A stretch of DNA of 64,000 nucleotides from Nocardioides sp. cx-173 (GTDB taxonomy: Bacteria; Actinomycetota; Actinomycetes; Propionibacteriales; Nocardioidaceae), in NCBI RefSeq assembly GCF_021117365.1, contig NZ_CP088262.1, positions 2,251,001-2,315,000 of the forward strand. Direction: 5' to 3'. The position numbers and the translations under genes are program-made. Below are positions 325 through 45,839 of this stretch, in pieces; the first letter of the stretch is position 1, and every line of letters starts with the position of its first letter. The notes below the pieces were generated by a model that had not been told where the DNA came from, did no database searches, and saw nothing but the letters and a program-made list of their open reading frames with translations.

Positions 325-387
325 CGTGGTTTGGTCACAAACCGCACATCTCGGCTGCGTTCGCCCACGGTTTGTGACCAAACCACG
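325..387. repeat. Paired-hairpin 41-bp element, copy 1
   Basis: Left core GGTTTGGTCACAAACC at 328-343 and its reverse complement at 369-384, 41 bp start to start. Outer arms CGTGG and CCACG match. The inner right arm is ACGG rather than GCGG. This is the distal member of a tandem pair downstream of mpa; the 35 bp between the two copies carry nothing recognisable. Confidence 0.9.
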
Positions 388-422
388 GCAACCTGCAGAC
401 ACCGAGCCCTGATGCATCCGTT

Positions 423-483
423 GTGGTTTGGTCACAAAGCGCAGGCAGCGCCGGCCGATGCCTGCGGTTTGTGACCAAACCAC
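423..483. repeat. Paired-hairpin 41-bp element, copy 2
   Basis: Left core at 425-440 and right core at 466-481, again 41 bp apart. The left core has one substitution (CAAAGC for CAAACC) that weakens the small left hairpin. The outer arms GTGG/CCAC and the spacer ends GGC/GCC remain complementary, so the long-range stem survives. It ends 17 bp from the mpa stop codon. Confidence 0.9.
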
Positions 484-499
484 GCGCAGATGGGCCGGG

Positions 500-2257
500 C
501 TACAGGTACTGCCCGGTGTTGGCGACGGTGTCGATGGAACGTCCGGGCTCGGTGCCCTGCTTGCCGGTGACGAGGGTGCGGATGAAGACGATCCGCTCGC
601 CCTTCTTGCCGGAGATGCGGGCCCAGTCGTCGGGGTTGGTGGTGTTGGGGAGGTCCTCGTTCTCCTTGAACTCGTCGACGCACGCCTGCAGCAGGTGCGA
701 GACGCGCAGACCGCGCTGCTGGTGGTCGAGGAGGTCCTTGATCGCCATCTTCTTGGCCCGGTCAACGATGTTCTGGATCATGGCGCCGGAGTTGAAGTCC
801 TTGAAGTACAGGACCTCCTTGTCGCCGTTGGCATAGGTGACCTCGAGGAACCGGTTCTCCTCGGTCTCGGTGTACATCCGCTCCACCGTGGCCCGGATCA
901 TCCCCGCGACGCAGGCGTTCCGGTTGCCGCCGAACTCCTCCAGGTCATCCGCATGCAGCGGCAGGCTGGGGGTGAGGTACTTCGAGAAGATGTCGCGGGC
1001 GGCCTCGGCGTCGGGGCGCTCGATCTTGATCTTCACGTCCAGCCGGCCCGGTCGCAGGATCGCCGGATCGATCATGTCCTCGCGGTTGGACGCCCCGATG
1101 ACCAGCACGTTCTCGAGTAGTTCGACACCGTCGATCTCACTGAGCAGCTGCGGCACGATCGTGTTCTCGACGTCGGAGGAGACGCCGGAGCCACGGGTGC
1201 GGAAGAGCGAGTCCATCTCGTCGAAGAAGACGATGACGGGGGTGCCTTCGCTGGCCTTCTCCCGCGCACGCTGGAACACCAGGCGGATGTGACGCTCGGT
1301 CTCGCCGACGTACTTGTTGAGAAGCTCGGGGCCCTTGATGTTGAGGAAGTACGACTTCCCCTCCTGGCCGGTCTTGGCCGCCACCTTCTTGGCCAGCGAG
1401 TTGGCCACGGCCTTGGCGATGAGCGTCTTGCCGCAGCCCGGAGGCCCGTAAAGCAGAACCCCCTTGGGCGGCTTCAACTCGTGCTCGAGGAACAGCTCGG
1501 GGTGCAGGTAGGGCAGCTCCACGGCGTCGCGGATCTGCTCGATCTGACCGAACAGGCCTCCGATGGACTCGTAGTCGATGTCCGGCACCTCTTCGAGGAC
1601 GAGCTCCTCGACCTCGGACTTCGGTACCTTCTCGTAGACGTAGCCCGCGCGCGAGTCGAGCAGAAGCGAGTCGCCGGCCCGGATCGTGTCGCTGAGCAGC
1701 GGCTGCGCCAGGCGTACGACGCGCTCCTCGTCGGCGTTGGCGATCACCAGGGCGCGTTCGCCGTCGGCGAGCAGCTCCTTGAACATCACCACCTCGCCGA
1801 CCTCTTCGTAGTCGAAGGCGGCGACGACGTTCAGGGCCTCGTTGAGCATGACCTCCTGGCCGCGACGCAGGTCATCGAGCTGCACCGACGGGCTGACGTT
1901 GACCCGCAGCTTGCGCCCGCCGGTGAAGACGTCCACGGAGTCGTCCTCGTTGCGAGCCAGGAAGGTGCCGAAGCCCGCGGGCGGCTGGGCGAGCCGGTCG
2001 ACCTCTTCCTTCAGCTTCATGATCTGGTCGCGCGCCTCGCGCAGCGTCTCCGCGAGGCGCTCGTTCTGAGACGTGACCGCCGACAGCGAGCGCTGGGCGT
2101 CTGCCAGCCGCATCTCCACCCCATGCGAGTGCGTCGGCACCTCGTTGAGCCGGCGGCGCAGGTCGGTCACCTCGGACTCGAGGAAGCGCACCTGGCTCTC
2201 GAGCTCGTCGGGACTCCGCCCGCTACCGCTGCTGGACACACCATCTGACATCGACAT
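500..2257 (-). CDS. mpa: Proteasome-associated AAA ATPase (Mpa/ARC)
   Basis: Hexameric AAA+ unfoldase that recognises pupylated proteins and feeds them to the 20S proteasome. The 585-residue protein has an N-terminal coiled coil (about residues 15-80) that in this family binds Pup, an interdomain OB region (about 90-225), Walker A GPPGCGKT at 271-278 and Walker B FFDEMDS near 340. It ends in GQYL, the C-terminal motif that docks the ATPase on the proteasome alpha ring, so it looks functional. I chose the ATG at 2257 because AGGAGG lies 8 bases upstream; a GTG at 2266 sits inside that Shine-Dalgarno. No pup, dop or prcBA is visible; those genes must lie elsewhere. A repeat separates mpa from the upstream amidotransferase, so it is probably transcribed on its own. 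Confidence 0.97.
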
Positions 2258-2362
2258 GAGGCCCACCTCCTGTACGTGCGACCCTACCCGGGCATCACAC
2301 CAACGGAAGTCTGTGAGCCACGGTGTTGGTCACGATTTGGGACAGGGTCGGTCACCGGACGT

Positions 2363-2429
2363 CCCGTGGTTTGGTCACAAACCGCACGTCGGCGGGCCTG
2401 CGCTTTGCGGTTTGTGACCAAACCACGGG
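2363..2429. repeat. Paired-hairpin 41-bp element, copy 3
   Basis: Left core at 2368-2383 and right core at 2409-2424, 41 bp apart. The outer arms extend to CCCGTGG and CCACGGG, the longest perfect outer stem with copy 6. It lies 23 bp after the amidotransferase stop and about 100 bp before the mpa start, between two genes in the same direction, so convergent transcription is not required. Confidence 0.9.
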
Positions 2430-2452
2430 TGGACGGCGTCCGCCCGCGGGGG

Positions 2453-3184
2453 TCAGCGGGCGTAACGGCGGGCGAAGTTGCGCAGGAGGGTGCCGGGATG
2501 GGTGACGGCGACGGCGCGGGCGGTGTCGCGCAGGCGGTCGGCGTCGGCGGGGTCGAAGTAGCCGTGCGTCGCGTAGACCGAGATCCGGGTCAGCAGGCCG
2601 GGCAGGTCGAGCTCGGGGTGGAACTGGGTGGCGTAGACGTGCTCACCCACCCGGAAGGCCTGGACCGGGCACGCCGCGGCCGTCGCCAACAGCGTGGCGT
2701 GGGCGGGCAGCAGCGAGATCGCCTCCTTGTGACCGCCGTACGCCGTGAAGGAGCGCGGGACGTCGGCGAACAGCGGGTCCGCGAGGCCGGCGTCCGTGAG
2801 CGTCACCGACAGGGGGCCCACGGGCTCGGGGTGGCTGGTGTCGACCACCCCGCCCTGGTGGGTGCCCAGCGTACCGATCCCGTAGCAGGCGCCCAGGAAG
2901 GGGAAGTCGGCCGCGACCACCCTGTCGAGCAGCGCCCCCAGGTCGGCCTCTGCGTGCCGCTGGGCCGCCGACTTGACCCGCTCGGGGTCCGACACGGTGA
3001 ACGCGCCGCCGCCGAGCAGGATCCCGGACCAGTCCTCGAGCACCACGTCCCCCAGGGGGCCGGAAGCCAGGGATCGGGTGTGCAGCTCAGCAGGCGAGAC
3101 CTCCAGGAAGCGGCAGAACGCGTCGTACTCCTCCCGTGCCGCCGCCTCCTCGGCGCGGATGGAGAGCAGCAGGAACGGTCTCAC
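2453..3184 (-). CDS. Class I glutamine amidotransferase domain protein
   Basis: A 243-residue stand-alone GATase1 protein that probably hydrolyses glutamine or a gamma-glutamyl amide. The nucleophile Cys100 lies in GACYGIG and the His/Glu pair in FHPE near residues 188-191, so the triad is intact. There is no synthetase domain. Relatives are often annotated as GMP synthase-like, but nothing here shows that activity. The start is GTG at 3184, overlapping the trmI stop as GTGA, which implies translational coupling with trmI. A paired-hairpin repeat follows its stop codon. Confidence 0.88.
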   Translation of the reverse strand: MRPFLLLSIRAEEAAAREEYDAFCRFLEVSPAELHTRSLASGPLGDVVLEDWSGILLGGGAFTVSDPERVKSAAQRHAEADLGALLDRVVAADFPFLGACYGIGTLGTHQGGVVDTSHPEPVGPLSVTLTDAGLADPLFADVPRSFTAYGGHKEAISLLPAHATLLATAAACPVQAFRVGEHVYATQFHPELDLPGLLTRISVYATHGYFDPADADRLRDTARAVAVTHPGTLLRNFARRYAR

Positions 3185-4185
3185 TCGCCCCCAGCCTCCC
3201 CGACCGCCTCCCCGGCCTCCCCGACCGCCTCGCCGGACCCGTCCTCGACGACCTCGGCGCGCGGCCCGGTGTAGTCGGGACCGTAGGCGCCCGGGGCGGG
3301 ACGGCGGCGCTTGAGCGGAGCCCTCTGGCCGGGCGCCATGCGACGAGCGGTCACCAGGAAAGCCGTGTGCCCGATCATCTTGTGACCGGGACGTACGGCG
3401 AGCCCCTCGACGTGCCAGTCGCGCACCAGCGACTCCCACGCCTGCGGCTCGGTGAAGCCGCCGTGCAGCCGCACCGTCTCCATGAAGCGCGACAGCTGGG
3501 TGGTGGTGGCGACGTACGCGCACACGATCCCACCGGGCCGCAGCGCGTCGGCGGTGGCGTCGAGGCACTCCCACGGCGCGAGCATGTCGAGGATGACCCG
3601 GTCGTAGCGCTCGCCGCTCGCCGGCAGCTCCTCGGCGAGGTCGCCCAGCCGCAGCGACCAGGCCGGGTGGGTCTCGCCGTCGGGCGCGCCGAAGAACTGG
3701 GTCACGTTCTTGCGCGCGACCTCGGCGAACTCCTCACGACGTTCGTAGGACGTCACCCGCCCGAACGGGCCGACCGCCCGCAGCAGCGAGCAGGTGAGGG
3801 CACCGGAGCCGACCCCGGCCTCCACCACGTCGGCTCCGGGGAAGATGTCGGCCATCGCCACGATCTGGGCGGCGTCCTTGGGGTACACGACCGCGGCCCC
3901 ACGAGGCATCGACACCACGAACTCCGAGAGCAGCGGCCGGAAGACGAGGTACTCGCCACCCGACGTCGAGGTGATCGTGAAGCCCTCCTCGCGCCCGATC
4001 AGGTCGTCGTGGGACATCCCGCCGCGGTTGGTGTGGAAGGTCTTGCCGGCCTCGAGGCAGATGTTGTGCTTGCGCCCCTTGGCGTCGACGAGCCGCACCC
4101 ACTCGCCCTCGCGCAGGGGCCCGCGGTGGACTCCCGACCAGGCCTGGGGGGCAACATCGTCGTCGTGCGGTTGGGTCGAGGACAC
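3181..4185 (-). CDS. trmI: tRNA (adenine-58-N1)-methyltransferase TrmI
   Basis: SAM-dependent enzyme making m1A58 in the tRNA T-loop. The 334-residue protein has the N-terminal beta domain of the family, the SAM-binding motif VVEAGVGSGALT around residue 120 and the following Rossmann methyltransferase. The C-terminus is a low-complexity tail of GEAVGEAGEA repeats not needed for the fold. Translation starts at GTG 4185 with TAAGGT (4197-4192) six bases upstream, so the message from this promoter is probably leaderless. Orthologue by position and sequence of M. tuberculosis Rv2118c. It lies 26 bp downstream of the site-2 protease gene and overlaps the amidotransferase by 4 bp. Confidence 0.95.
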   Translation of the reverse strand: MSSTQPHDDDVAPQAWSGVHRGPLREGEWVRLVDAKGRKHNICLEAGKTFHTNRGGMSHDDLIGREEGFTITSTSGGEYLVFRPLLSEFVVSMPRGAAVVYPKDAAQIVAMADIFPGADVVEAGVGSGALTCSLLRAVGPFGRVTSYERREEFAEVARKNVTQFFGAPDGETHPAWSLRLGDLAEELPASGERYDRVILDMLAPWECLDATADALRPGGIVCAYVATTTQLSRFMETVRLHGGFTEPQAWESLVRDWHVEGLAVRPGHKMIGHTAFLVTARRMAPGQRAPLKRRRPAPGAYGPDYTGPRAEVVEDGSGEAVGEAGEAVGEAGGE

Positions 4186-4211
4186 CGCGGAACCTTACTG
4201 GGGGCAGGCGC

Positions 4212-5345
4212 TCACTGGCGAAACGCTCGGTCGACGTCGGCGGTGGACAGCACGCCGTACACGCTCCCGTCCTCCTCGACGAGCACGTACTCCGCCGCGG
4301 GGGTCCGGTTGATCGCCATGACCAGCTCCTCGCCGTCGATGCCGACCGGGAGCCGCAGCCCCTCGTCGAGGGTGCGCGCGACGGTGGACACCGCGACCCA
4401 GGGACGCCGCTCCGGCGGCGTGGCCAGGAGCGCGGCCTCGTTGACCACGCCGACCGGTCGCCCCCCGGTGGTGACGGTGACGATGCTGCCCGCCTCCGCC
4501 TCCTGGGCGCGCCGCACCGCCTCGGCCAACGGCAGGTCGTCGGGCACGGCGAGGGTACGGCGGGCGAGGTCGCGGGCGCGCAGCTCGGGCAGTCGCGCAC
4601 GCAGCCGGGCCGAGGCCATCGCCGCGGTGGCTCCCGACCACAGGAAGGAGGCGATGACGATCGCGAGCACGAAGTCGATGACGTCGGGGGGCCGCCCCAG
4701 TGCCTGCTCCTGGAAGAGCGGCCACAGCAGGACCAACCCGGCCGTGATCCGGCCGCCCCAGCCTGCCGCGAGGGTGCCGCGGTGCACGTTTCCGGTGACG
4801 CGCCACACGGCGGCCTTGAGCACCCGGCCTCCGTCCAGCGGCAGTCCCGGCACCAGGTTGAGGACCCCGACGAGCAGGTTCGCGCCGGCGAGGCCCTGCA
4901 CGGCCATCAGCAGCAGGCCATCGGGGGTGACGAACCACAGGCCCACCCCGACGGCGCCGACCGCCAGCGAGGTCAACGGCCCCACGACGGCGATCCAGAA
5001 CTCCTGGCGCGGCGTGCGGGCCTCGCCCTCGATCGAGGTCATCCCGCCGAGGAAGTGCAGCGTGATCGACTGCACCGCGAAGCCGTAGCGCCGCGCCATG
5101 AGCGCGTGCGAGGCCTCGTGGAGCAGGACCGACCCGTAGAGGATCACCGCGAACGCGAGGCCGGCGACGTACTTCCCGGCGCCCAGGCCTGGTTGCACCA
5201 CCTCGACCTGCGGGGCCATCAGGACGGCGATCAGCCCGGCAATGAGGAACCACGACGAGGACACGAGGACCTCGCTGCCCGCGATCGTGCCCAGCTTGAA
5301 GGTCCCGGGGGGCCGGGGAGCAGGGCGCGGGACGGGGTCGGACAC
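4212..5345 (-). CDS. Site-2 protease family (M50) intramembrane metalloprotease with CBS domains
   Basis: A 377-residue polytopic membrane protease. The zinc motif HEASH is at about residues 76-80 in the second hydrophobic segment, and the third ligand motif LPLDGG lies near 165-170. Six or so membrane segments precede a cytoplasmic CBS pair (about 245-375), the layout of the Rip3-type family, where CBS domains sense nucleotides. Substrates are unknown; relatives clip anti-sigma factors or other membrane proteins. GTG at 5345 is preceded by TAGGTT (5357-5352) and six bases, consistent with a leaderless start. Divergent from the RecB-like gene across 99 bp. Confidence 0.93.
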   Translation of the reverse strand: MSDPVPRPAPRPPGTFKLGTIAGSEVLVSSSWFLIAGLIAVLMAPQVEVVQPGLGAGKYVAGLAFAVILYGSVLLHEASHALMARRYGFAVQSITLHFLGGMTSIEGEARTPRQEFWIAVVGPLTSLAVGAVGVGLWFVTPDGLLLMAVQGLAGANLLVGVLNLVPGLPLDGGRVLKAAVWRVTGNVHRGTLAAGWGGRITAGLVLLWPLFQEQALGRPPDVIDFVLAIVIASFLWSGATAAMASARLRARLPELRARDLARRTLAVPDDLPLAEAVRRAQEAEAGSIVTVTTGGRPVGVVNEAALLATPPERRPWVAVSTVARTLDEGLRLPVGIDGEELVMAINRTPAAEYVLVEEDGSVYGVLSTADVDRAFRQ

Positions 5346-5444
5346 ACCTCGAACCTAGCCGACCCGCGTTCGCCGTCAGCGTGCGGCGTCGCCCTCCCGC
5401 GGGCTGTCGGCGACCTCGCCTAAGGTCGAGGGCGTGAGGTCACG

Positions 5445-6328
5445 ATGACGGTCCATCAAGCGGCGGACGCCTCCCCGGCGCAGCGGGTCTCGACCCCCGT
5501 GGACGGGGTGGAGGTGCTCGGCGCGCTCTCCCCCAGCCGCGCCGGCGACTTCCTGACCTGCCCCCTGCTCTACCGCTACCGCACCATCGACCGGCTCCCC
5601 GAGCCCTACTCGGCCGACGCCGTGCGCGGCACGGTGGTCCATCGAGTCCTGGAGAACCTCTTCGACCTGCCGGCGCTCGAGCGCACCCCGGAGCGCGCGC
5701 GCGGACTGCTCATGCCGGCCTGGGACGAGCTGCTCGACGCCGAGCCCGGCGTGGCCGAGATGTTCGGCACCGAGGGCCCCGACGTCGCCGCCTGGCTGAC
5801 CTCGTGCCGCACCGTCCTCGACCGCTACTTCTCCCTCGAGGACCCCCAGCGCCTCGAGCCCGCCGAGCGCGAGCTGTACGTCGAGGCGCTGCTCGACTCC
5901 AAGCTGCTGCTGCGCGGCTTCGTGGACCGCATCGACGTCGCCCCCGACGGCGCGATCCGGGTGGTCGACTACAAGACAGGGCGCTCGCCGACCGAGGACT
6001 TCGAGGCCAAGGCCCTGTTCCAGATGAGGTTCTACGCCCTCGTCATCTGGCGCACCCGCGGCGTGGTGCCGGCGATGCTGCAGCTGATCTATCTCGGCAA
6101 CGGCGAGATCCTGCGCTACGTCCCCGACGAGCGCGACCTGCTCGCCACCGAGCGCAAGGTCGAGGCGGTGTGGCAGGCGATCCGCCACGCCACCGCTACC
6201 CGCGACTGGCAGCCGCGCCGCAGCCGGCTGTGTGACTGGTGCGCGCACCAGGCCATCTGCCCGGAGTGGGGCGGCACTCCCCCACCGCTCACCCCCGATG
6301 AGGGCCGCGACCCCGCCCAGGACGCGCG

Positions 6329-6332
<4 letters not shown>
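5445..6332 (+). CDS. RecB-family PD-(D/E)XK exonuclease with Cys cluster
   Basis: A 295-residue stand-alone nuclease domain resembling the C-terminal nuclease of RecB/AddB. It shows the AddB-like iron-sulfur pattern: one cysteine near the start (FLTCPLLYRY) and three near the end (CDWCAHQAICP), plus the catalytic VVDYKTG motif around residue 170. No helicase domain is attached. ATG 5445 has GAGG five bases upstream; a -10-like TAAGGT at 5421-5426 predicts a leader of only about ten bases. Its counterpart in M. tuberculosis is Rv2119, also next to trmI. The stop overlaps the convergent ABC gene by 4 bp. Confidence 0.9.
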
Positions 6333-7440
<1,108 letters not shown>

Positions 7441-7444
<4 letters not shown>

Positions 7445-8481: not shown

Positions 8482-8485
8482 GCCG

Positions 8486-10446: not shown

Positions 10447-10488
10447 CTCCCTACCGCCGCCCGGACGCTGACGCCTGGTGGGACCCGA

Positions 10489-12153: not shown

Positions 12154-12382
12154 GATTCACCTCATGGTCGACACGTTCTCGCAGAGCCCCGGATACTGCC
12201 GTGCTCGTAGAGCGAACGCAGGGGAACATACTCGGCCGCCGACCCCGATGGCTACCGGACGTACCGCGGCCGATGGTCGCGAATTGGCAACGATCTGAAC
12301 TCGAGTCGCCCTCCCACGGGCAGCCTTACACCATCATGACCTCGCGGCGAAGGCCTCTCGTGGGGTCGCAGGCGCCGGGACG

Positions 12383-20269: not shown

Positions 20270-20336
20270 CCTGCGGTTTGGTCACAAACCGCAGGTTCTC
20301 GCCGCCCGGATCTGCGGTTTGTGACCAAACCGCAGG
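20270..20336. repeat. Paired-hairpin 41-bp element, copy 4
   Basis: Left core at 20275-20290, right core at 20316-20331, 41 bp apart. Each half alone is a perfect 10-bp stem CTGCGGTTTG/CAAACCGCAG around a GTCA or TGAC loop, the best small hairpins of the set. It sits between the convergent PAC2 and mshC stops, 21 and 22 bp from them. Confidence 0.9.
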
Positions 20337-24740: not shown

Positions 24741-24803
24741 GTGGTTTGGTCACAAACCGCACGCCCCGACCCCGAGAACCTGCGGTTTGTGACCAAACCG
24801 CAC
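24741..24803. repeat. Paired-hairpin 41-bp element, copy 5
   Basis: Left core 24743-24758, right core 24784-24799, 41 bp apart. The outer arms are GTGG on the left and CCGC on the right, which pair only through a G-U wobble in RNA. It begins 5 bp after the corA stop and ends 15 bp from the convergent uppP stop. Confidence 0.9.
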
Positions 24804-26892: not shown

Positions 26893-26959
26893 CCCGCGGT
26901 TTGGTCACAAACCGCGCGCCGGCGGCCCGCAGATCTGCGGTTTGTGACCAAACCGCGGG
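26893..26959. repeat. Paired-hairpin 41-bp element, copy 6
   Basis: Left core 26898-26913 and right core 26939-26954, 41 bp apart. The outer arms CCCGCGG and CCGCGGG pair perfectly and correspond to CCCGTGG/CCACGGG of copy 3, a compensated T:A to C:G change. It lies between the convergent DUF5703 and TPR gene stops, 12 and 16 bp away. Confidence 0.9.
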
Positions 26960-28786: not shown

Positions 28787-28872
28787 GTCCGGGTGGCGGA
28801 ATTGGCAGACGCGCTAGCTTGAGGTGCTAGTGCCCGTATTAGGGCGTGGGGGTTCAAGTCCCCCCTCGGACA
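28787..28872 (+). tRNA. tRNA-Leu (anticodon GAG)
   Basis: A class II tRNA with a 7-bp acceptor stem (GTCCGGG with CTCGGAC, one G-T wobble), anticodon stem CTAGC/GCTAG around loop TTGAGGT giving GAG, a long variable arm GCCC-GTATTA-GGGC, and a T arm of five G:C pairs around TTCAAGT. CCA is not encoded. TACTGT at 28769-28774 is a likely -10. Confidence 0.97.
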
Positions 28873-33444: not shown

Positions 33445-33553
33445 GAACGGGACCGGCCCGGCGCCGGCCCTGTCGCGCCGTGAGCGCGGGCTGGAGGCGG
33501 TGACTCTTCTCGTACCCCTCCCGGCTGACACCGGCTGGGTGCACGATGGGCGC

Positions 33554-34333: not shown

Positions 34334-34350
34334 CCGCGCCCCGGATTCGA

Positions 34351-34417
34351 CCCGCGGATTGGTCACAAACCGCGCGTACCGGCCGGTAGAACGTGTGGTT
34401 TGGTCACAAACCTCGGG
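34351..34417. repeat. Paired-hairpin 41-bp element, copy 7 (atypical)
   Basis: Left core GGATTGGTCACAAACC at 34356-34371 and right core GGTTTGGTCACAAACC at 34397-34412, still 41 bp apart. Here the right loop is GTCA, so the halves are direct, not inverted, whereas the other eight copies have TGAC. The left stem also carries one mismatch (GGATTG). The spacer contains the palindrome TACCGGCCGGTA. It lies between convergent stops. Confidence 0.85.
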
Positions 34418-34462
34418 TACAGCCGGCAGCCGATCGCGGTGGTCGTACGTACGGACGCGGCG

Positions 34463-35431: not shown

Positions 35432-35507
35432 GTCCCATCCCTCCGTCGCCGCGCCCGGCAAGGCCCTCGACGCTAGCCAGTGCGTCCCACTACCCCATAC
35501 TCGGGCG

Positions 35508-36092: not shown

Positions 36093-36112
36093 CCCTGCCG
36101 GGCCCCGCACCA

Positions 36113-36177
36113 CCCGTGGTTTGGTCACAAACCGCAGATCGCCGAGCCGCGGAGATGCGGTTTGTGACCAAACCGCG
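36113..36177. repeat. Paired-hairpin 41-bp element, copy 8
   Basis: Left core 36118-36133 and right core 36159-36174, 41 bp apart. The outer arms GTGG/CCGC pair by G-U wobble, as in copy 5. It ends 3 bp before the guaB1 stop codon and begins 20 bp after the LysR-type gene stop, almost filling the convergent gap. Confidence 0.9.
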
Positions 36178-36180
36178 TCC

Positions 36181-37636
<1,456 letters not shown>

Positions 37637-37642
37637 CGGGGC

Positions 37643-38746
37643 ATGACATCGTCCGTCGGCCGCTCCCCCGGCCGCGTCAATCTCATCGGCGAGCACACCG
37701 ACTACAACCAGGGCCTCTGCCTGCCGCTCACCATCCCCTACGCCACGACCGTCACCGCGACCTCCCGTGAGGACGACGGCGTCACGGTGCGCAGCGACAC
37801 GCAGGACGAGCCGTGGACCGGCACCCACGCCACCACGGGCCCCGGCGCCGCCGAGGGCTGGGCGACGTACGCCGTGGGCGTGCTCTGGGCCCTGCAGGAG
37901 GAAGGCTGGCACCTGCCCGGCGTCGACCTCGAGGTGCGGAGCACCGTGCCGATGGGGGCCGGGCTCTCGAGCTCGGCCGCACTGGAGTGCGCGGTCGCGG
38001 TCGCCGTGTGCGGGCTGACCGGGCGCGAGCTCACCGGCGACCTGCGCCATCAGCTGGTGGCGGCCTGCCGCCGCGCCGAGAGCGAGGTGGCCGGCGCCCC
38101 GACCGGCGGGCTGGACCAGAGCGCGGTGCTCCTCTCCGCGCCCGGCGCCGGTCTGCTGATCGACTTCGAGGACGGCTCCACCCGCGATGTGCCCCTCCCG
38201 TGGGACGAGGCCGGGCGCACCCTGCTGGTCGTGGACACCCGGGTCTCCCACGCACTCACCGACGGCGGGTACGGCGCCCGCCGTCAGGACTGTGAGGCCG
38301 CCGCCGAGGCGCTCGGGCTGCCGTCGCTGCGCCGCGCCACGCTGCGCGACGTCGGCGGGCTCGACGACCCCCGGCTCCGGGCCCGTGCTCGCCACGTGGT
38401 CACCGAGAACGCCCGCGTCGCCGACGCCGTCGCGGCCGTCGAGAGCGGCGACTGGGCCGCCCTGGGGGAGCTGATGATCGCCTCCCACGACTCGCTGCGC
38501 GACGACTACGAGGTCTCCTGCGCCGAGCTCGACCTGGTCGTCGCGACCGCGCTGGACGCCGGCGCGCTCGGCGCCCGCATGACCGGCGGCGGCTTCGGAG
38601 GCTCGGCGATCGCGCTGGTCCCGGCCGAGCGCGCCGAGGCCGTGCGCAGGGCGGTCGACGCCGCCTTCGCGGCCGCCGGCTTCGCCGCACCGCGCCACCT
38701 GGACGCCGGCCCGAGCGGCCCGGCCGAGCTCCTCAGGTCGCCGTGA
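37643..38746 (+). CDS. galK: Galactokinase
   Basis: A GHMP kinase that phosphorylates galactose at O1. The 367-residue protein has the galactokinase signature GRVNLIGEHTDYNQG starting near residue 10, the ATP-binding PMGAGLSSSAAL near 105 and the C-terminal GARMTGGGFGGSAIAL near 310. No other Leloir genes (galT, galE) are adjacent. ATG 37643 follows TAGGGT and six bases. The last 14 bp overlap the convergent DUF2252 gene. Confidence 0.95.
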   Translation: MTSSVGRSPGRVNLIGEHTDYNQGLCLPLTIPYATTVTATSREDDGVTVRSDTQDEPWTGTHATTGPGAAEGWATYAVGVLWALQEEGWHLPGVDLEVRSTVPMGAGLSSSAALECAVAVAVCGLTGRELTGDLRHQLVAACRRAESEVAGAPTGGLDQSAVLLSAPGAGLLIDFEDGSTRDVPLPWDEAGRTLLVVDTRVSHALTDGGYGARRQDCEAAAEALGLPSLRRATLRDVGGLDDPRLRARARHVVTENARVADAVAAVESGDWAALGELMIASHDSLRDDYEVSCAELDLVVATALDAGALGARMTGGGFGGSAIALVPAERAEAVRRAVDAAFAAAGFAAPRHLDAGPSGPAELLRSP

Positions 38747-40040
38747 CCCCCACGCGCCCCTCCCGGAAGGCGTGCACGAAGAGCGCGTGGTCCTCGCGGA
38801 CCCGGTCGGCGTAGCCCATCGCGAAGTCGGTCACCCAGCGCACGAGCTCGCGCCGCCGGCCCTCCACGCTCTCCGCGATCGCCTCCTCGACCTGGAAGTC
38901 GACCAGGTCCTGGTCGCTGTCCTCGTCGGAGGCGCAGTGGATCTTGGCGGTGGCGCGACCCAGCAGGTCGACCACCTGGGCGATCTCGCGGGGCTCGGTG
39001 ACGTTCGACCAGTCGAGGTCGACCTCGTACGGCGACAGCTCGCTCACGACGTAGCCGACGCCGTCCAGCTCGGTGTAGCCCAGCATCGGGTCGGTGTGCA
39101 CCTGCAGGGCCCGCTGGCTCACGACCGTGCGGTGGCCCTCGTGCTCGAAGTACCGCTCCACCTGGGTGGTGTCGACGAACCGGCTGATGGCCGGCACGTT
39201 GGCCTGCTTCATCGACAGCACGACGTCGTTGTCCAGGGCCTGGCTGTAGCCCTCGACCAGCACGTTGTACGCCGGCAGCCCGGCGCTGCCGATGCCGAAG
39301 CCCGACCTGCCGACGACGTCGCGCAGCTCGTAGAAGAGGTCGCGACCGGAGCGACGGCGCTCCGGGATGGTCTCCAAGTAGGCCTCGAAGGCCTGGACCA
39401 CCTGGGCGCGCTCCCGCTTGCCCAGACGGCGCACCCCGCGCCCCTCGCGGAAGAGCCGGATCCCCTCGATCTCCTCGGTGCTGGCGTCGAGCAGCTCGGC
39501 GCGGCGCTGGTGCCGCGCGAGGACCAGCGCCTCCTTCACCGGTCCCTCGGTGTTGTCGAGGTGCAGCGCGAAGTCGTCCTCCTCGCTGTGGCGGTACTCG
39601 TCCACCTGCGACAGGTACGCGCGCAGGTAGCGGCCGATCAGCCGCCTCACGTCGTCCTCGGGCAGCGCCTTCTGCCAGCCCACCAGCGCGAGCGACGCCG
39701 CGAAGCGCTGCAGGTCCCAGGTGAACCGCCCCAGGTAGGCCTCGTCGAAGTCGTTGATGTCGAAGACCAGCCGGCCGTCGGAGTTGAGGTAGGTGCCGAA
39801 GTTCTCCACATGCAGGTCACCGTGCACCCAGATCCGGCCGCTGCGCTCGTCGGCGAACGGGTCGTCGGCGCCGCTCACATCGGCGTAGAACAGGCAGGCC
39901 GTGCCCCGGTAGAACGCGTGCGGGTCAGAGGACATGGTGCGGAACTTGCCGCGGAACGCCGCCGGGTCGGCCTCCATCAGCGGCGCGAACGCGTCGCCCA
40001 GCGTCGACACGATCAGCTCGGTCCGCTCGTCCCCGGTCAC
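38733..40040 (-). CDS. DUF2252 family protein
   Basis: A 435-residue conserved protein with a protein-kinase/APH-like look: WVHGDLHVENFG near residue 75 resembles the HGDxHxxN catalytic loop and VFDINDFDEA near 95 the metal-binding IDFD. A C-terminal region has GIGSAGLPAYNVLVEG. Function unknown; probably a small-molecule or protein kinase. GTG 40040 is taken as start, with ATG 40073 (eleven residues longer) as an alternative; neither has a good Shine-Dalgarno. Convergent overlap with galK is 14 bp. Confidence 0.87.
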   Translation of the reverse strand: MTGDERTELIVSTLGDAFAPLMEADPAAFRGKFRTMSSDPHAFYRGTACLFYADVSGADDPFADERSGRIWVHGDLHVENFGTYLNSDGRLVFDINDFDEAYLGRFTWDLQRFAASLALVGWQKALPEDDVRRLIGRYLRAYLSQVDEYRHSEEDDFALHLDNTEGPVKEALVLARHQRRAELLDASTEEIEGIRLFREGRGVRRLGKRERAQVVQAFEAYLETIPERRRSGRDLFYELRDVVGRSGFGIGSAGLPAYNVLVEGYSQALDNDVVLSMKQANVPAISRFVDTTQVERYFEHEGHRTVVSQRALQVHTDPMLGYTELDGVGYVVSELSPYEVDLDWSNVTEPREIAQVVDLLGRATAKIHCASDEDSDQDLVDFQVEEAIAESVEGRRRELVRWVTDFAMGYADRVREDHALFVHAFREGRVGVTAT

Positions 40041-40157
40041 CCGGCAGAGACTGCCATGCTCCGCCTCACCCATCCAGAGCGTGTGAGGGCGCGTACTCAG
40101 ACGCAGCCGGGTACGCGGGCCGCTCCCCCACGGCCCTACGACGGACAGGCTGGAGGC

Positions 40158-40445
40158 ATGAGCACTCCGACCCCCTCCAAGAACACCAACGCCTTCTTCG
40201 CGCAGGCCGCGATCTCGTTCGGCATCGCGCTGCTGACCATGATCTTCGCGATCCTCTACCTGCCGGTCGACCCGTGGATCCGGGCGTTCCTCGGCCTCGG
40301 GACGCTGTTCCTCACCACGTCGTGCTTCACGCTCGCCAAGTGCGTGCGCGACACCCAGGAGAACCAGTACGTCGTCTCCCGGCTCGACCAGGCGCGCGTC
40401 GACAAGATCCTCGCCGAGCACGACCCCTTCCGTAGCGTCTCCTGA
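40158..40445 (+). CDS. YiaA/YiaB-like two-helix membrane protein
   Basis: A 95-residue inner-membrane protein with two close hydrophobic helices (about 13-35 and 42-62) joined by PVDPWIR, then a charged cytoplasmic tail (YVVSRLDQARVDKILAEHDPF). This matches the YiaAB two-helix domain; function unknown. ATG 40158 has GGAGG too close for normal use and CAGGCT six bases upstream, so leaderless initiation is more likely. A strong hairpin follows at 40475. Confidence 0.82.
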   Translation: MSTPTPSKNTNAFFAQAAISFGIALLTMIFAILYLPVDPWIRAFLGLGTLFLTTSCFTLAKCVRDTQENQYVVSRLDQARVDKILAEHDPFRSVS

Positions 40446-40474
40446 CCCCCGGCTCCGCCTCGCTCCCCCGTCCC

Positions 40475-40511
40475 AGGGCGGGCGCACCGTCCCGGACGGT
40501 GTGCCCGCCCT
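40475..40511 (+). terminator. Strong hairpin terminator after the YiaAB gene
   Basis: A 16-bp stem AGGGCGGGCGCACCGT paired with ACGGTGTGCCCGCCCT (one G-U) around loop CCCGG. Only TTC follows, so there is no real T tract. It lies 30 bp after the YiaAB stop and is very stable. Confidence 0.7.
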
Positions 40512-40567
40512 TCTGCATGCTGGTTGAATCGCCGGTAGACCGTTCGCGACGACGACAGGGAGTGCCC

Positions 40568-40930
40568 GTGGCAGCCATCGACCGGATCAAGAGCGCCGCG
40601 TCCGGGGTCGTGGTGATCGGCACCGCGCTCGGCGCGAGGGCGACCCGCACCGCGCGACCGCTGCTCGACAGGGCCGTCCAGGCGGTGCGTGCCCGGACCG
40701 GCACCGGCATGCCGACGCCCGTGGTGCCCAGTGCCGCCCCTGCCCCCGCGCCTGAGCGCCGAACCGCGCCGCAGACCCAGTCACCACCGGCATCCGGGCT
40801 GCCCACGCCCGCGGCGGTGGCGCGGAACATCGCACCGCACCCGCCGACTCCGAGCCCCGCCAAGGCGAAGCCGGCCAGAGCCTCGGCGCCGGGCGCCAAG
40901 CTGCCGGTACGCCGCAGCGCCACCGACTGA
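40568..40930 (+). CDS. Small Ala/Pro-rich basic protein, unknown
   Basis: A 120-residue protein not assigned to a family. The first 45 residues are an amphipathic Ala/Arg helix (IDRIKSAASGVVVIGTALGARA); the rest is Pro/Ala-rich and disordered with scattered Lys/Arg. GTG 40568 has AGGGAG six bases upstream. The N-terminus weakly resembles that of the histone H1-like protein encoded next (IK...GTA pattern), so the two may be distant paralogues. Real coding status is likely but not certain. Confidence 0.6.
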   Translation: MAAIDRIKSAASGVVVIGTALGARATRTARPLLDRAVQAVRARTGTGMPTPVVPSAAPAPAPERRTAPQTQSPPASGLPTPAAVARNIAPHPPTPSPAKAKPARASAPGAKLPVRRSATD

Positions 40931-41046
40931 TCCCGCTCGGGGCGCCCCGGCGCGCTCCGCTGGTGCCCAAGGTCACCCTGACCAACCGCGTCCCGGCTCG
41001 TTGGCTGGGTACAGGCATGACGAACGCACCGACGAAAGGACCTCCT

Positions 41047-41796
41047 GTGGCCCGCAAGAACCCGATCAAGACGATCACCGACGTCGCCCTCGGCACGGCG
41101 GAGACCGCCGCCAGCCTGACCGTCGAGACCGCCAAGGGTGGGGTCGGGCTGGGCAGGCTCGTCGCCGGCGCCATGGCCGCCAAGGCCTCGGAGACCGTCA
41201 CCGCGCTGCTGCCCGGCCGCACCCCGGTCGCCACTCCGCCGGCCGCCGCGCCGCGGGGCACGGCCGCGGAGAGCCTCCCCGCCGCGGTGCCCGCAGAGGT
41301 CTCGCGCAAGGTCCAGGGCGACGCCCTCGCTCCGGAGACCGCGGCCAGGGTGGCCCCCACGAAGGCTCCTGCCCAGAAGGCTCCGGCCAAGAAGACGGCC
41401 GCGAAGAAGACTCCGGCCCAGAAGACGCCGGCCCAGAAGACGCCGGCCAAGAAGTCCGCCGCGAAGAAGGTCGCCGCGCCGAAGGTCGAGGTCGACCCCA
41501 GCACGCCGGTCAACGTCACCGAGGAGCTGGGCCTGGACCCGTCTCCCGTCGCCAAGAAGGCTCCGGCCAAGAAGGCTCCGGCGAAGAAGGCGCCGGCCAA
41601 GGCACCCGCCAAGAAGGCCGCTGCGAAGAAGACACCGGCGAAGAAGGCACCCGCCAAGAAGTCGCCCGCCAAGAAGGCCGCCTCGCCGTCGGCGGAGCCG
41701 TTGACCGACATCGACAAGCAGGCCGACACCGAGCACGTGGACGTGACGCCCGCCGACATCGCGCCGGTGGTGGCGAAGAAGTCGGCCGAGGGCTGA
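41047..41796 (+). CDS. Histone H1-like Lys/Ala/Pro-repeat DNA-binding protein
   Basis: A 249-residue protein with an Ala-rich helical N-terminus (about 1-60), a linker, then two blocks of KKAPAKK/KKTPAQK repeats (about 100-140 and 170-215) split by an acidic insert (VEVDPSTPVNVTEELG), and an acidic C-terminus. The repeats resemble eukaryotic H1 tails and the C-terminal arm of mycobacterial HupB, so non-specific DNA or RNA binding is likely. GTG 41047 is chosen because AAAGGA lies about six bases upstream; ATG 41017 is ten codons earlier. Confidence 0.8.
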   Translation: MARKNPIKTITDVALGTAETAASLTVETAKGGVGLGRLVAGAMAAKASETVTALLPGRTPVATPPAAAPRGTAAESLPAAVPAEVSRKVQGDALAPETAARVAPTKAPAQKAPAKKTAAKKTPAQKTPAQKTPAKKSAAKKVAAPKVEVDPSTPVNVTEELGLDPSPVAKKAPAKKAPAKKAPAKAPAKKAAAKKTPAKKAPAKKSPAKKAASPSAEPLTDIDKQADTEHVDVTPADIAPVVAKKSAEG

Positions 41797-41820
41797 GCCT
41801 CCCGACCATCGACGACGCGC

Positions 41821-41854
41821 GAAGGCGGCGGATCCCCATGGGGCCGCCGCCTTC
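41821..41854. terminator. Bidirectional hairpin terminator
   Basis: An 11-bp stem GAAGGCGGCGG/CCGCCGCCTTC enclosing a second CCCC/GGGG stem, between the convergent H1-like and acyl-CoA dehydrogenase genes. It ends 14 bp before the dehydrogenase stop. No T tract on either side. Its sequence is unrelated to the 41-bp repeat family found at other convergent junctions. Confidence 0.72.
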
Positions 41855-41868
41855 GTCGTCGGGGGGGG

Positions 41869-43086
41869 CTACTTCAGCTCGGCGCTGGAGAGCCCGAGCA
41901 CGCGCCGGGCCACGATGAGCTGCTGGATCTGCTGGGTGCCCTCGAAGATGTCGAGGATCTTGGAGTCGCGGGCCCACTTCTCCAGCAGCTCGGTCTCGCT
42001 GTAGCCCACCGAGCCGGCCAGCTCGACGCAGCCGAGGGTGATGTCGGAGCCCACCCGGCCGGCCTTCGCCTTGGCCATCGAGGCCTCCAGCGAGTTGGGC
42101 TTGCGGTTGTCGGCCATCCACGCCGCCTGGAGGGTGAGCAGGTACGCCGCTTCCCAGTCCGCCTCCATCTGCAGCAGCCGGGCCGCGGCGGCCGACTGGG
42201 TCTGGGCGGGTCGGTCGTAGTCGACGGTGACCCCCGCCTGCGCCAGCAGGTCGCGGGTGAGGTCGAGCGCGGCGCGGGCGCAGCCCACGGCCATCGACGC
42301 CACCAGTGGGCGGGTGTTGTCGAAGGTCGCCATCGCGCCGGCGAAGCCCTGCGAGGTGTCGACCTCCGGTGAGCCGAGGAGGTTCTCGGCGGGGACTCGG
42401 CAGTCCTCGAAGATGATCGTCGCGGTGTCGGAGGCCCGGATGCCGAGCTTGTGCTCGAGCCGGTCGACGCGCATGCCGGGCGTGCCCTTCGGCACCACGA
42501 ACGACTTGATCGCGGCCCGTCCGAGGCTCTTGTCGAGGGTCGCCCAGACCACGATGTGGTCGGCGCGGTCGCCCGAGGTGACGTAGATCTTCTCGCCGTT
42601 GAGCACGTAGTGGTCGCCGTCGAGGGTCGCCGTGGTCGAGATGTTGGCCGAGTCGGAGCCCACGCCGGGCTCGGTGATCGCCATGCCGGCCCACACCCCG
42701 GCGAACCGCTGCTGCTGCTCCTCGTCGGCGACCGAGGCGATCGCGGAGTTGCCGAGCCCCTGGCGCGGCATGGACAGCAGCAGCCCCACGTCGCCCCAGC
42801 ACATCTCGGCGATGGACATCACCGAGGCCAGGTTGGTGCCGTTCCTGACCCCGGCGTCGGCACCATCGGCCTCCTCACGGCGTACGCCGGCGGCGCCCGC
42901 ACCCTCGCTGGCGCCGGACTCGGCGAGCCCGTCGATCATCGCGGCGAGCATGTCGAGCTCCTTGGGGTACTCGTGCTCGGCGCGGTCGTACTTGCGCGAG
43001 ATCGGGCGCAGCATGTTCATGGCGACCTGGTGGGCCTGGCCGACCAGGGGGCGGAGCTTCTTCGGGTCGTCGAGATTGATGGCCAT
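41869..43086 (-). CDS. Acyl-CoA dehydrogenase family protein (catalytic-type subunit)
   Basis: A 405-residue FAD enzyme of fatty-acid or acyl-CoA alpha,beta-oxidation. It has the FAD/substrate strand MAITEPGVGSDSANI near 130, the VTSGDRADHIVVWA segment, and the C-terminal DIFEGTQQIQQLIVARRVLG typical of active subunits. It starts at ATG 43086, overlapping by one base the stop of the upstream dehydrogenase gene. Two adjacent unequal ACADs suggest a heterotetramer like the paired actinobacterial FadEs. The physiological acyl-CoA is unknown. Confidence 0.93.
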   Translation of the reverse strand: MAINLDDPKKLRPLVGQAHQVAMNMLRPISRKYDRAEHEYPKELDMLAAMIDGLAESGASEGAGAAGVRREEADGADAGVRNGTNLASVMSIAEMCWGDVGLLLSMPRQGLGNSAIASVADEEQQQRFAGVWAGMAITEPGVGSDSANISTTATLDGDHYVLNGEKIYVTSGDRADHIVVWATLDKSLGRAAIKSFVVPKGTPGMRVDRLEHKLGIRASDTATIIFEDCRVPAENLLGSPEVDTSQGFAGAMATFDNTRPLVASMAVGCARAALDLTRDLLAQAGVTVDYDRPAQTQSAAAARLLQMEADWEAAYLLTLQAAWMADNRKPNSLEASMAKAKAGRVGSDITLGCVELAGSVGYSETELLEKWARDSKILDIFEGTQQIQQLIVARRVLGLSSAELK

Positions 43087-44450
43087 CAGACCAGCACGCT
43101 TCCTTCCATGACGCCGACCGCGCGCAGGTCGCGGTACCAGCGCTCGACGGGGTGTTCCTTGACGAAGCCGTGGCCGCCGAGCAGCTGGACGCCGTCGAGG
43201 CCGATCTGCATGCCCTTGTCGGCGCACAGGCGCCGGGCCAGCGCGACCTCGCGCGCGAAGTCCTTGCCCGCGGCGGCTCGGGAGGCCGCCTTGTAGGTCA
43301 GCAGCCGCATGGACTGGAGCTCGATCGCGATGTTGGCGACCATGAACGCCACCGACTGGCGGTGCGCGATGGGCTCGCCGAACGCGTGGCGCTCCTTGAC
43401 GTAGGGGGTGACGTAGTCGAGCACCGCCTGGCCCGTGCCGACGGCGAGCGCGCACCAGGCGAGCCGCGAGAGGCGCACGCACTCGGCGTACGAGGTGCCG
43501 TCGGTGTCGCCGAGCACCGCGTCGGCCGGGACCGCGACGTCGGTGAGCGTCAGCCGTGCCAGCGAGGCGGCGCGCACGCCCATCGCCGGGTCGCCCTCGA
43601 CCGCGAGGCCTGGGGTCGAGGACTCCACGAGGAAGAGCACCGGTCGACCCTCGAGCGAGGCGCCGACGACGAAGAGCTCGGCCTGCGCGCCACGCGGGAC
43701 CAGGGTCTTGACGCCGTCGAGGACGTAGCCGCCGGGGGTGCGGGTCGCGGTCGTCGAGGGGCTCAGGACGTCGAAGAGCACCGTGGGCTCGTTGAGCGCG
43801 AGGGCCGCGGCCGGGACGTCGTCGCCCGTGAACGCCGGGAGGTAGGTCTGCTGCTGGGCGTCGGTGCCCCAGAGCCCCAGGGCGGTCGCGACCGAGCCGG
43901 GCGCGAGCGCCGCGACGGCCAGGCCGAGGTCGCCGTGGGCGAGGGCCTCGGCGACGAGGGTGCCGGCCATGGCCGAGCGCTCCTCGGAGATGCCGCCGAG
44001 GGACTCGGGCACGCCGAGGATGGGCAGGCCGATCTCCAGGCTGGCCTTCAGCAGCGGCTCGGGAGCCGCGCACGCCTCGTCGGCCTCTGCGGCCGCCGGG
44101 CGCACGACCTCCTCGGCGAACTCGCTCACGACGTCGACCAGCATCTGCTCGTCCTCGGTCGGCGTCAGGTCGAAGACGCCCGGCGTCGGCGCGGGCGCCG
44201 CACGGACCCCCGGCTCCCCCGCGCGCCCCGACGCCGCGAAGGTCCGGCTCGCGGCGGTGAGGGTCTTGAATCCGCCACGCGTCACCGTGAAGACGGCCTG
44301 CTCGGCCGGCTTGCGCAGCCGCACGCGGTCGAGGACGTCGCTCTGCGCCAGCCGGTTCAGACCGGCGACGAGATAGCCGATGGGGTCACGCGACTCGCCG
44401 CTCGGGACGCCGTGCCGGCCGCCGGGACGCAGGCTCTGGAGGAGGGACAT
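43086..44450 (-). CDS. Acyl-CoA dehydrogenase family protein (partner subunit)
   Basis: A 454-residue ACAD with an unusual 90-residue N-terminal extension (SLLQSLRPGGRHG...TPGVFDLTPTEDEQML) before the normal fold. The C-terminal half has the helical FGEPIAHRQSVAFMVANIAIE and ends in GGHGFVKEHPVERWYRDLRAVGVMEG. It lacks the FEGTxQIQ segment of its partner. ATG 44450 follows TACATT (44462-44457) and six bases, so it is leaderless; the palindrome at 44459-44475 covers that -10 and should be the site of a repressor. First gene of the two-gene operon. Confidence 0.92.
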   Translation of the reverse strand: MSLLQSLRPGGRHGVPSGESRDPIGYLVAGLNRLAQSDVLDRVRLRKPAEQAVFTVTRGGFKTLTAASRTFAASGRAGEPGVRAAPAPTPGVFDLTPTEDEQMLVDVVSEFAEEVVRPAAAEADEACAAPEPLLKASLEIGLPILGVPESLGGISEERSAMAGTLVAEALAHGDLGLAVAALAPGSVATALGLWGTDAQQQTYLPAFTGDDVPAAALALNEPTVLFDVLSPSTTATRTPGGYVLDGVKTLVPRGAQAELFVVGASLEGRPVLFLVESSTPGLAVEGDPAMGVRAASLARLTLTDVAVPADAVLGDTDGTSYAECVRLSRLAWCALAVGTGQAVLDYVTPYVKERHAFGEPIAHRQSVAFMVANIAIELQSMRLLTYKAASRAAAGKDFAREVALARRLCADKGMQIGLDGVQLLGGHGFVKEHPVERWYRDLRAVGVMEGSVLV

Positions 44451-44458
44451 ACCGATAA

Positions 44459-44475
44459 TGTAACTGGGAGTTACA
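44459..44475. promoter_or_regulatory. Palindromic operator over the acyl-CoA dehydrogenase promoter
   Basis: TGTAACTGGGAGTTACA has perfect 7-bp arms around GGG. It overlaps the -10 hexamer TACATT of the leftward operon and lies about 41 bp upstream of the def -10. TGTAACT-type arms are common among TetR regulators of actinobacterial fatty-acid genes. No regulator gene is adjacent. Confidence 0.7.
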
Positions 44476-44527
44476 CTTGCCGCTACACCATGTCGGGTGC
44501 GGCAGGTCACACCACTACGATGGCTCC

Positions 44528-45121
44528 GTGCCTGATCCGGAAGCCCCCAGCGTCCTCGCGCCCTACGGCCCCCTCCCCACCGGTGGTCGGGTCCGCCCGA
44601 TGACCCGGTGGGGCACTCCGGTGATGCACCGCCCCCAGGCCCTCGTGACGACCTACGACGAGGAGCTGACGGCCCTGGCCGCCGACATGGTTGCGACGAT
44701 GTACGCCGCCGACGGAGTCGGCCTCGCGGCGTGCCAGATCGGCGAGGACGTCGCGATGTTCGTCTTCGACTGCCCCGACGAGTCCGGGCAGCGCACGGTG
44801 GGCGTGGTGTGCAACCCGGTGCTGAGCCTGCCGGAGGGTCGCGACCGGGTGCTCGACGAGGACGACGAGGGCTGTCTGTCCTTTCCCGGGGCGTTCGTGG
44901 AGCTCGCCCGCCCCGACACCGCGACCGTGACCGGCACCGGCCTGGACGGCTCGCCGGTCACCTTCTCCGGCGACGGCCTGCTGGCGCGCTGCCTGCAGCA
45001 CGAGACCGACCACACCCTCGGCACCGTCTTCGGCGACCGCCTCCCGACCAAGCTGCGCAAGCGTCTGCAGAAGCAGCACGACAAGGTCGCCGACGAGTAC
45101 CCCGAGACCTGGCCGGCCTGA
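44528..45121 (+). CDS. def: Peptide deformylase
   Basis: An iron metallohydrolase removing the N-formyl group from nascent proteins. In 197 residues all three motifs are present: GVGLAACQIG near 64 (I), EGCLS near 114 (II, metal Cys) and QHETDH near 157 (III, HExxH form). GTG 44528 is six bases after TACGAT (44516-44521), so a leaderless message is expected. The sulfotransferase gene begins 3 bp after its stop. No fmt gene is adjacent. Confidence 0.95.
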   Translation: MPDPEAPSVLAPYGPLPTGGRVRPMTRWGTPVMHRPQALVTTYDEELTALAADMVATMYAADGVGLAACQIGEDVAMFVFDCPDESGQRTVGVVCNPVLSLPEGRDRVLDEDDEGCLSFPGAFVELARPDTATVTGTGLDGSPVTFSGDGLLARCLQHETDHTLGTVFGDRLPTKLRKRLQKQHDKVADEYPETWPA

Positions 45122-45124
45122 GGG

Positions 45125-45760
45125 ATGCCGATCTTCCTACGCGGGGGACGCGCGGTGCTGTTCGTCCACGTCCCCAAGACCGGGGGCACCAGCATCGAGC
45201 GGGTCTTCGAGCGCGCGGGATGGTCCACCTACCTCCTGGAGACGCCGGACACCGAGCGCGAGCTGGTCGCCGTACGCAAGTGCTCACCGCAGCACTACCA
45301 CGCGGAGCTGCTGCGGGCGCTGCTGCGGCTGGGCCGCTTCGAGGCGACGTTCATGATGGTGCGCGACCCGCTCGCGCGCTTCCGCTCGGAGTTCCTGATG
45401 CGCCACAGCCGTGAGCCGCGCACGTCGGCCGCCGACGTCGAGGAGTGGGCAGACCGGTTGCTGCGCCGCTACCGCAGCAACCCGTTCGTGCTGGACAACC
45501 ACGTGCGGCCCCAGAGCGAGTTCCACCTCAAGGGGGCGACCGTCTACCGGCTGGAGGACGGCGTGGACAGCATGGTCGGCGACCTCAACGCCCGCCTCGG
45601 CCTCGACCTGGACCCGGCGGTCCCCCACACCATGCACGGCACCCAGAGGGCGGGCCTGCCGAGCTCCGCCGTGGAGCTGTCCCCGGCGCTGGTCGACCGG
45701 CTGAGCGACTTCTACGCCTCCGACTTCGAGCTGTTCGGCTACCCACGCCCCGTGCCCTGA
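45125..45760 (+). CDS. Sulfotransferase family 2 domain protein
   Basis: A 211-residue PAPS-dependent sulfotransferase. FVHVPKTGGTSIERVF near residue 13 is the 5'-phosphosulfate loop and MVRDPLARFRSEFLMR near 78 the 3'-phosphate binding motif. The fold is that of carbohydrate or lipid sulfotransferases; the acceptor is unknown. ATG 45125 directly follows the def stop, with GAGGG abutting the ATG, so translation is probably coupled to def. The pairing with a housekeeping deformylase has no obvious biochemical logic. Confidence 0.85.
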   Translation: MPIFLRGGRAVLFVHVPKTGGTSIERVFERAGWSTYLLETPDTERELVAVRKCSPQHYHAELLRALLRLGRFEATFMMVRDPLARFRSEFLMRHSREPRTSAADVEEWADRLLRRYRSNPFVLDNHVRPQSEFHLKGATVYRLEDGVDSMVGDLNARLGLDLDPAVPHTMHGTQRAGLPSSAVELSPALVDRLSDFYASDFELFGYPRPVP

Positions 45761-45773
45761 CGGCGGGCCGAGG

Positions 45774-45839
45774 CCCGCGGTTTGGTCACAAACCGCAGGT
45801 TCCGGGCTCCGGAACGTGCGGTTTGTGACCAAACCGCGC
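45774..45839. repeat. Paired-hairpin 41-bp element, copy 9
   Basis: Left core 45779-45794 and right core 45820-45835, 41 bp apart. Outer arms GCGG/CCGC pair. The spacer itself contains the inverted repeat GTTCCGG-GCT-CCGGAAC, so the whole element could form three stacked hairpins. Between convergent sulfotransferase and RNA methylase stops, 13 and 11 bp away. Confidence 0.9.

Follow-up and report, generated by a model that had tools for sequence, protein, structure and literature searches.

The subject of this study is a short paired repeat in a 64,000-nucleotide stretch of Nocardioides sp. cx-173 (hereafter the window; positions 2,251,001-2,315,000 of the single 4,445,725-bp contig of the genome, G000), together with a nuclease-like gene just outside the window to which this repeat is linked. 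The repeat is built on a near-palindromic 16-bp core, GGTTTGGTCACAAACC, which occurs 18 times in the window as nine pairs, each with a start-to-start distance of 41 bp and a full length of 57 bp; the chance expectation is 0.11 core matches per window at ≤3 mismatches (100 shuffles). An earlier reading made from these letters alone (the sequence-only reading) had reported these nine pairs, and all 18 cores were recovered, 16 of them exact and the two at 425 and 34356 with one mismatch each. That reading described every pair as a core and its reverse complement, which is correct for eight of the nine; the two cores at 34356/34397 have the same orientation.

The copies, none assigned to a strand, are distributed as follows. 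The first two, at 328..384 (inverted cores 41 bp apart) and 425..481 (with the mismatch in its first core), start 97 bp from each other, and the third, at 2368..2424, corresponds to a junction without an element in the related genome G009. The remaining six lie at convergent junctions: 20275..20331, where elements are also found in G009 and G055 and none in G024; 24743..24799, absent in G055; 26898..26954; the direct pair at 34356..34412, whose first core carries the mismatch; 36118..36174; and 45779..45835. Our own gene calls, on which all gene-context classes given here rest, agree with the sequence-only reading that six window copies have convergent genes on either side, with the other three placed after co-directional genes. 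The only Rfam match in the window at the gathering threshold is a tRNA gene (28787-28872, plus strand), and at this threshold the element matches no Rfam family.

The genome-wide search that the sequence-only reading had proposed identified 44 cores in G000 at ≤2 mismatches, compared with one for a reversed-pattern control. All of them are confined to C1:2,172,325-2,296,835, or ∼125 kb of the 4.45-Mb chromosome, where they group into 22 elements: 20 pairs, a triple spaced by 41 bp twice, and a single unpaired core. All 22 are located ≤75 kb from a single gene, none was found elsewhere at ≤2 mismatches, and the probability that 22 random places would cluster this tightly is negligible. Fourteen of these elements lie between convergent genes and eight after co-directional genes. 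No called gene of G000 contains an element, whereas in the analyzed stretch of G009 one of 18 elements is intragenic. The core-to-core offsets below 50 bp in G000 all equal 41 (22/22), so that the invariant spacing claimed from the window extends to the whole genome; among relatives it does not hold throughout, as G009 contains one pair spaced 42 bp, G123 has many cores without a partner at ≤1 mismatch, and the examined parts of G056 hold five lone cores versus two pairs. The 41-bp phasing is valid for G000 and several relatives, though not absolute.

Double elements such as the one at window positions 328/425 (97 bp from start to start) are also found in G000 at C1:2,221,798/2,221,898 and C1:2,236,128/2,236,228 (100 bp each), and G009 and G055 have double elements at some of the same junctions. 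In G066, C1:703,375-703,684 contains an array of eight direct-orientation cores, mostly in 41-bp steps with one of 48, and G024 shows strong tandem repetition with a 21-bp period in the stretches L063-L068 (C1:970,001-1,090,000). The neighbors of out-of-cluster copies in G055 and G024, viewed by eye with no family search made, offered nothing striking as a clue to a regulator. When genome contigs were scanned for the core, at least 120 stretches matched; the 80 listed are all from Nocardioides except for one Pimelobacter metagenome-assembled genome.

Hairpins are predicted to be stable for all nine window copies (-26 to -58 kcal/mol), and with six copies between convergent stops these elements could be bidirectional transcription terminators or mRNA 3′-end stabilizers. 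We regard this as very improbable. The 15 bases past the stem contain only 0-3 T residues (no T-run), the elements are restricted to ∼125 kb of a 4.4-Mb genome, direct-orientation pairs retain the 41-bp distance, and copies are also present upstream of the nuclease-like gene described below. Given the stable hairpins, an RNA role is conceivable, but it leaves the linkage to this gene unexplained. These observations bear out the proposal of the sequence-only reading that the element is more than a plain terminator.

The cluster lies in the terminus region of the chromosome, because the one dif-like site is at 2,200,891 and dnaA is at position 367 of 4,445,725; GC skew was too flat to inform the terminus position. 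Relatives, G055 and G024 among them, likewise carry their clusters in the terminus region. Since the elements surround dif and lie opposite dnaA, we initially favored the idea that they are terminus-organizing or fork-arrest sites (matS-like or Ter-like).

Comparison of related genomes pointed instead to a gene. The terminus block of G000 is largely syntenic with those of the element-bearing G055, G024, and G009 and of the element-free G025, G028, and G047. A minus-strand gene located 3.8-4.9 kb ahead of the window, at C1:2,246,151-2,247,158, encodes a 335-amino acid product; it is present in G055, G024, and G009 and absent from the stretches of G025, G028, and G047, and it is flanked by the element on both sides. 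The same presence pattern was seen for a 577-amino acid gene near 2.19 Mb, and an adjoining 332-amino acid gene occurs neither in the element-free stretches nor in G024. This comparison covers genes up to ∼2,266 kb, because the element-free stretches do not reach further. In the G000 stretch L046, the minus-strand neighbor of the nuclease-like gene (start near position 6057) is a candidate gene for the Pup ligase PafA.

In its predicted model, the 335-amino acid protein combines an N-terminal part with an AbiEi-antitoxin-like fold and a C-terminal domain with an EDxHD-type (Vsr-like) nuclease fold; the N-terminal part is likely DNA-binding. Residues E191, E195, D227, E238, D240, and H244 are invariant across 28 sequences. 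The protein scores below the Pfam gathering threshold for Vsr/DUF559, a sequence search of solved structures gave no match at E ≤ 1, and a Foldseek search of the PDB gave none at E ≤ 0.001 (the best was 1zel, Rv2827c, at 3.2e-3). Foldseek against BFVD returned eight matches at E ≤ 0.001, several of them labeled DUF559 or mismatch/Vsr endonuclease. The family has one member in G000 (paralogue search at E ≤ 0.001). Plasmids gave no match, none of the 32 viral-contig stretches that fit one peptide pattern was a confirmed relative, and the element was not found in viral contigs.

A search with the protein across 147 congeneric genomes found a close homologue in 38 (50-100% identity, with best E values of about 1e-81 or below), with a gap separating these orthologues from paralogues at 35-44% identity. 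An orthologue is present in 24 of the 27 genomes with ≥10 core matches, a threshold chosen by us, and in 14 of the 120 other genomes. For four of these 14 (G036, G087, G118, and G098), whose elements had been missed by the first search because the core had drifted, the gene's own flanking core was used as a query, and dispersed copies were found in all four: 23, 21, 11, and 13 matches, respectively, at ≤2 mismatches, three in each case flanking the gene and most with a partner at 41 bp (as a guide, a similar 16-mer in the G000 window had a chance expectation of 0.11 matches per 64 kb at three mismatches). Across 30 of the 38 orthologue loci, the upstream side carries a core in 29 and a 41-bp pair in 25, and the downstream side carries a core in 27, compared with 0/30 and 0/30 for same-size control windows ∼1 kb away. 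Eight core types were accepted here at ≤2 mismatches, a part of them having been learned from the loci themselves. A weak partner (≤5 mismatches) stands 41 bp from the downstream core in 19 of the 30, either toward the gene or away from it. One orthologue locus, L242 of G061, has an internal TGA, and that genome has just two core matches at ≤2 mismatches. We consider the linkage of gene and repeat to be secure.

The position of the clusters also distinguishes the gene from dif. In 12 genomes with known element positions, the cluster center is nearer the gene than dif in 12/12, and dif lies 31-54 kb from the cluster center or nuclease-like gene. The median element offset from the gene is 0.1 kb in both G000 and G055, -2.0 kb in G024, 1.2 in G009, -3.8 in G081, -9.1 in G032, and 19 in G123. 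Elements >150 kb from the gene were excluded from this comparison (none in G000, 2/10 in G055, 2/15 in G024, 7/23 in G032, 18/32 in G123, and 5/29 among the matches listed for G066), as were one weak match in G032 and matches on other contigs of G066 and G081, and coverage of G009, G036, G087, G118, and G098 was a stretch around the gene or dif. The centering in G000 is unfiltered and independent of these exclusion choices. Three syntenic relatives have dif without such a repeat around it: de novo repeat searches of 120 kb around dif in the element-free G025, G028, and G047 found no counterpart, and neither did one of 40 kb of G001. Paralogues elsewhere, described below, show the same layout with other palindromes. 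The terminus-site reading was rejected on the grounds of the linked gene and of centering on that gene rather than on dif, and we now consider it improbable.

The elements also behave as discrete units of length. Among 277 orthologous junctions compared between G000, G009, G055, and G024, an element is present in both partners at 27, in one at 32, and in neither at 218, so that 32 of the 59 element-bearing junctions differ in presence or absence; the 59 are not separate events, because the species pairs are not independent. Where only one partner carries a single paired element (27 junctions), its intergenic region exceeds the empty one by a median of 95 bp (11 to 250), whereas element-free junctions differ by a median absolute length of 10 bp. 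Some empty sites are tight, such as a 6-bp gap in G055 versus 81 bp in G000 around window position 24,743. The spacers of G000 are weakly related to each other (mean identity 0.46, random 0.36, maximum 0.84) and the flanks are near random past a few bases, whereas 39 of 44 core copies in pairs are identical. Copied units in which the cores have been kept while the spacers drift fit best.

The same near-invariance of the cores amid diverged spacers and flanks could reflect static binding sites for an autoregulated regional chromosome organizer or regulator, with parABS-like logic and a nuclease domain that is unused for copying. Such a role would agree with the avoidance of coding sequence by the elements of G000, and PMC7319586 describes binding of AbiEi-family proteins to inverted repeats that precede the genes encoding them. 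We consider static sites unlikely: the elements are discrete length differences, present in one partner and absent from the other at more than half of the element-bearing junctions, their spacers are related above random as in copied units, and the terminus regions of G025, G028, and G047 are devoid of them despite being largely syntenic.

The gene-repeat relationship was also examined at paralogues. In 20 paralogue loci (35-44% identity), the flanks of the gene (450 bp before, 300 bp after) share identical words of ≥16 bp in 11, compared with 0 of 782 random gene-sized windows of the same loci, and many of these genes are flanked on both sides by palindromes unrelated to the G000 core. In 12 of the 20, the most repeated upstream 13-mer is the flank motif; the other eight were uninformative. 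G023 contains four paralogues (∼50-61% mutual identity); the inverted pair differs from one to the next but recurs upstream and downstream of each gene, at up/downstream spacings of 41/41, 35/35, 34/33, and 40/40. In L256, L258, L259, and L267 (G121, G102, G012, and G022, respectively), both flanks contain inverted arrays of a 13-bp motif with a 30-31-bp period. Distant relatives of the protein are present in 78 of 296 genomes of the class (45 of 114 genera). Shared flank words of ≥16 bp were found in 11 of 30 such loci (four of the 30 loci are truncated), among them loci from other families (G203, 27 bp; G218, 24 bp; G296, 33 bp). Different paralogues thus have different repeats in those loci whose two flanks share sequence.

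Based on this linkage, the flanking of the gene, the co-variation of core and gene, the insertion-size length differences, and the paralogue-specific repeats, we propose, with a probability of roughly 0.6, that the elements make up a repeat family cognate to a single AbiEi-like/EDxHD-like nuclease protein that would work in a REP/RAYT-like manner with an unrelated enzyme. Two protein units would bind the two 16-bp cores on the same face of the DNA, at a distance of four helical turns, and binding upstream of the nuclease-like gene would repress that gene; by analogy, such binding and self-repression are likely. The nuclease, acting at an element or at a break, would then seed intergenic sites nearby with ∼75-95-bp copies of the pair, and these copies would survive mainly at gene 3′ ends. 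Binding, repression, cleavage, and copying or mobility of the element by the protein are what we infer from the patterns above, and the spreading of the element by the nuclease is the least certain step. The sequence-only reading had suggested recognition by a protein, and a dedicated protein now appears very likely; its interpretation is supported in part, and the confinement around the nuclease-like gene, the flanking, the paralogue palindromes, and the insertion behavior lay outside what those letters could reveal.

Several observations weigh against this proposal. More than half of the G123 elements (18/32) are >150 kb from the gene, and no target-site duplication was seen by eye in 22 filled/empty comparisons, in which sequences are highly diverged and some sites recur in several relatives. 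Three genomes, G056, G143, and G144, have elements without an orthologue at E ≤ 1e-20. G143 and G144 are metagenome-assembled genomes (71% and 87% complete), and the cores of G056, which lie around dif at C1:4,501,523-4,708,400 and are mostly lone with longer palindromes in the stretches examined, are possibly relics left after gene loss. Nine of the 20 paralogues have no identical flank word of ≥16 bp, and two of the four in G023 carry in-frame stops within the matched range. In a 13-mer motif search of 17 family loci, run without a control, the three paralogues of G346 as well as G106a, G062b, and G012b lacked a clear pair on both sides. A further copy within 20 kb was found in just four of the 12 paralogue loci with a flank motif (G027, G062, G012, and G128), so large local clusters of solo elements may be special to the terminus orthologue group.

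More broadly, these proteins could represent a new selfish or domesticated class in Actinomycetota, in which solitary AbiEi-EDxHD nucleases with a private palindrome pair per paralogue, present on both gene flanks, write ∼60-95-bp copies into adjacent intergenic DNA and co-evolve with them, although we hold this generalization as tentative and more doubtful than not. Such a class would be an HUH-independent counterpart of REP/RAYT, spread possibly by local break-and-copy and not by transposition. If so, a second, non-HUH enzyme family would have its own palindromes, and repeat-enzyme partnerships would have arisen more than once. A function would also be at hand for a large protein family that is labeled hypothetical, DUF559, or very-short-patch-repair endonuclease, where labeled at all, and the protein-target pairs (four in the single genome G023) would be suited to studying the co-evolution of nuclease and site. 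In a literature search with few subscription papers in reach, neither the element nor any DUF559-type protein that has cognate repeats was found described; the sequence-only reading likewise had not recognized the element as a described family.

REP-like palindromes are widespread. The anatomy closest to that of the present element is the GTAG-type REP/REPIN system with its RAYT, which according to PMC3733652 likewise consists of short palindromes, often paired, in intergenic positions near gene 3′ ends, with a repeat-flanked cognate gene. That paper also describes a large CGTC group of REPs without a dedicated enzyme. In both systems, the repeat sequence is lineage-dependent. Movement of the present element by a classical RAYT (Y1, HUH) transposase is hardly credible: matches to Y1_Tnp (PF01797) at E ≤ 0.001 were found in none of 18 genomes, including G000, compared with five of 14 control genomes, and the linked gene encodes a different fold, AbiEi-like plus Vsr/EDxHD-like. 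The RAYT reading was rejected for the missing PF01797 matches, and the element is not filed under REP/RAYT because the defining enzyme was not found. By eye, no GTAG or CGTC tag tetranucleotide is present at the palindrome end in the consensus of elements and flanks from G000, G009, G024, and G055. Unlike REPs, the copies in G000 are confined near the gene, and the 41-bp spacing is kept as spacers diverge.

The system resembles MatP/matS in having numerous short near-palindromic sites within the terminus region and differs in being centered on a gene and not on dif, in its 41-bp pairs, and in the lack of such sites around dif in syntenic relatives. Compared with EDxHD homing endonucleases such as I-Bth0305I, the present protein is chromosomal and free-standing, with no relative confirmed in the one viral-contig pattern scan, and it has another DNA-binding part and repeats on both gene flanks. 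To our knowledge, no repeat association is known for Vsr; relative to Vsr and DUF559 endonucleases, the protein falls below the Pfam gathering score and has an extra N-terminal part. Finally, it differs from the type IV antitoxins AbiEi and Rv2827c in that the AbiEi-like part is fused to a nuclease-like domain and its palindromes are also found downstream of the gene and dispersed around it.

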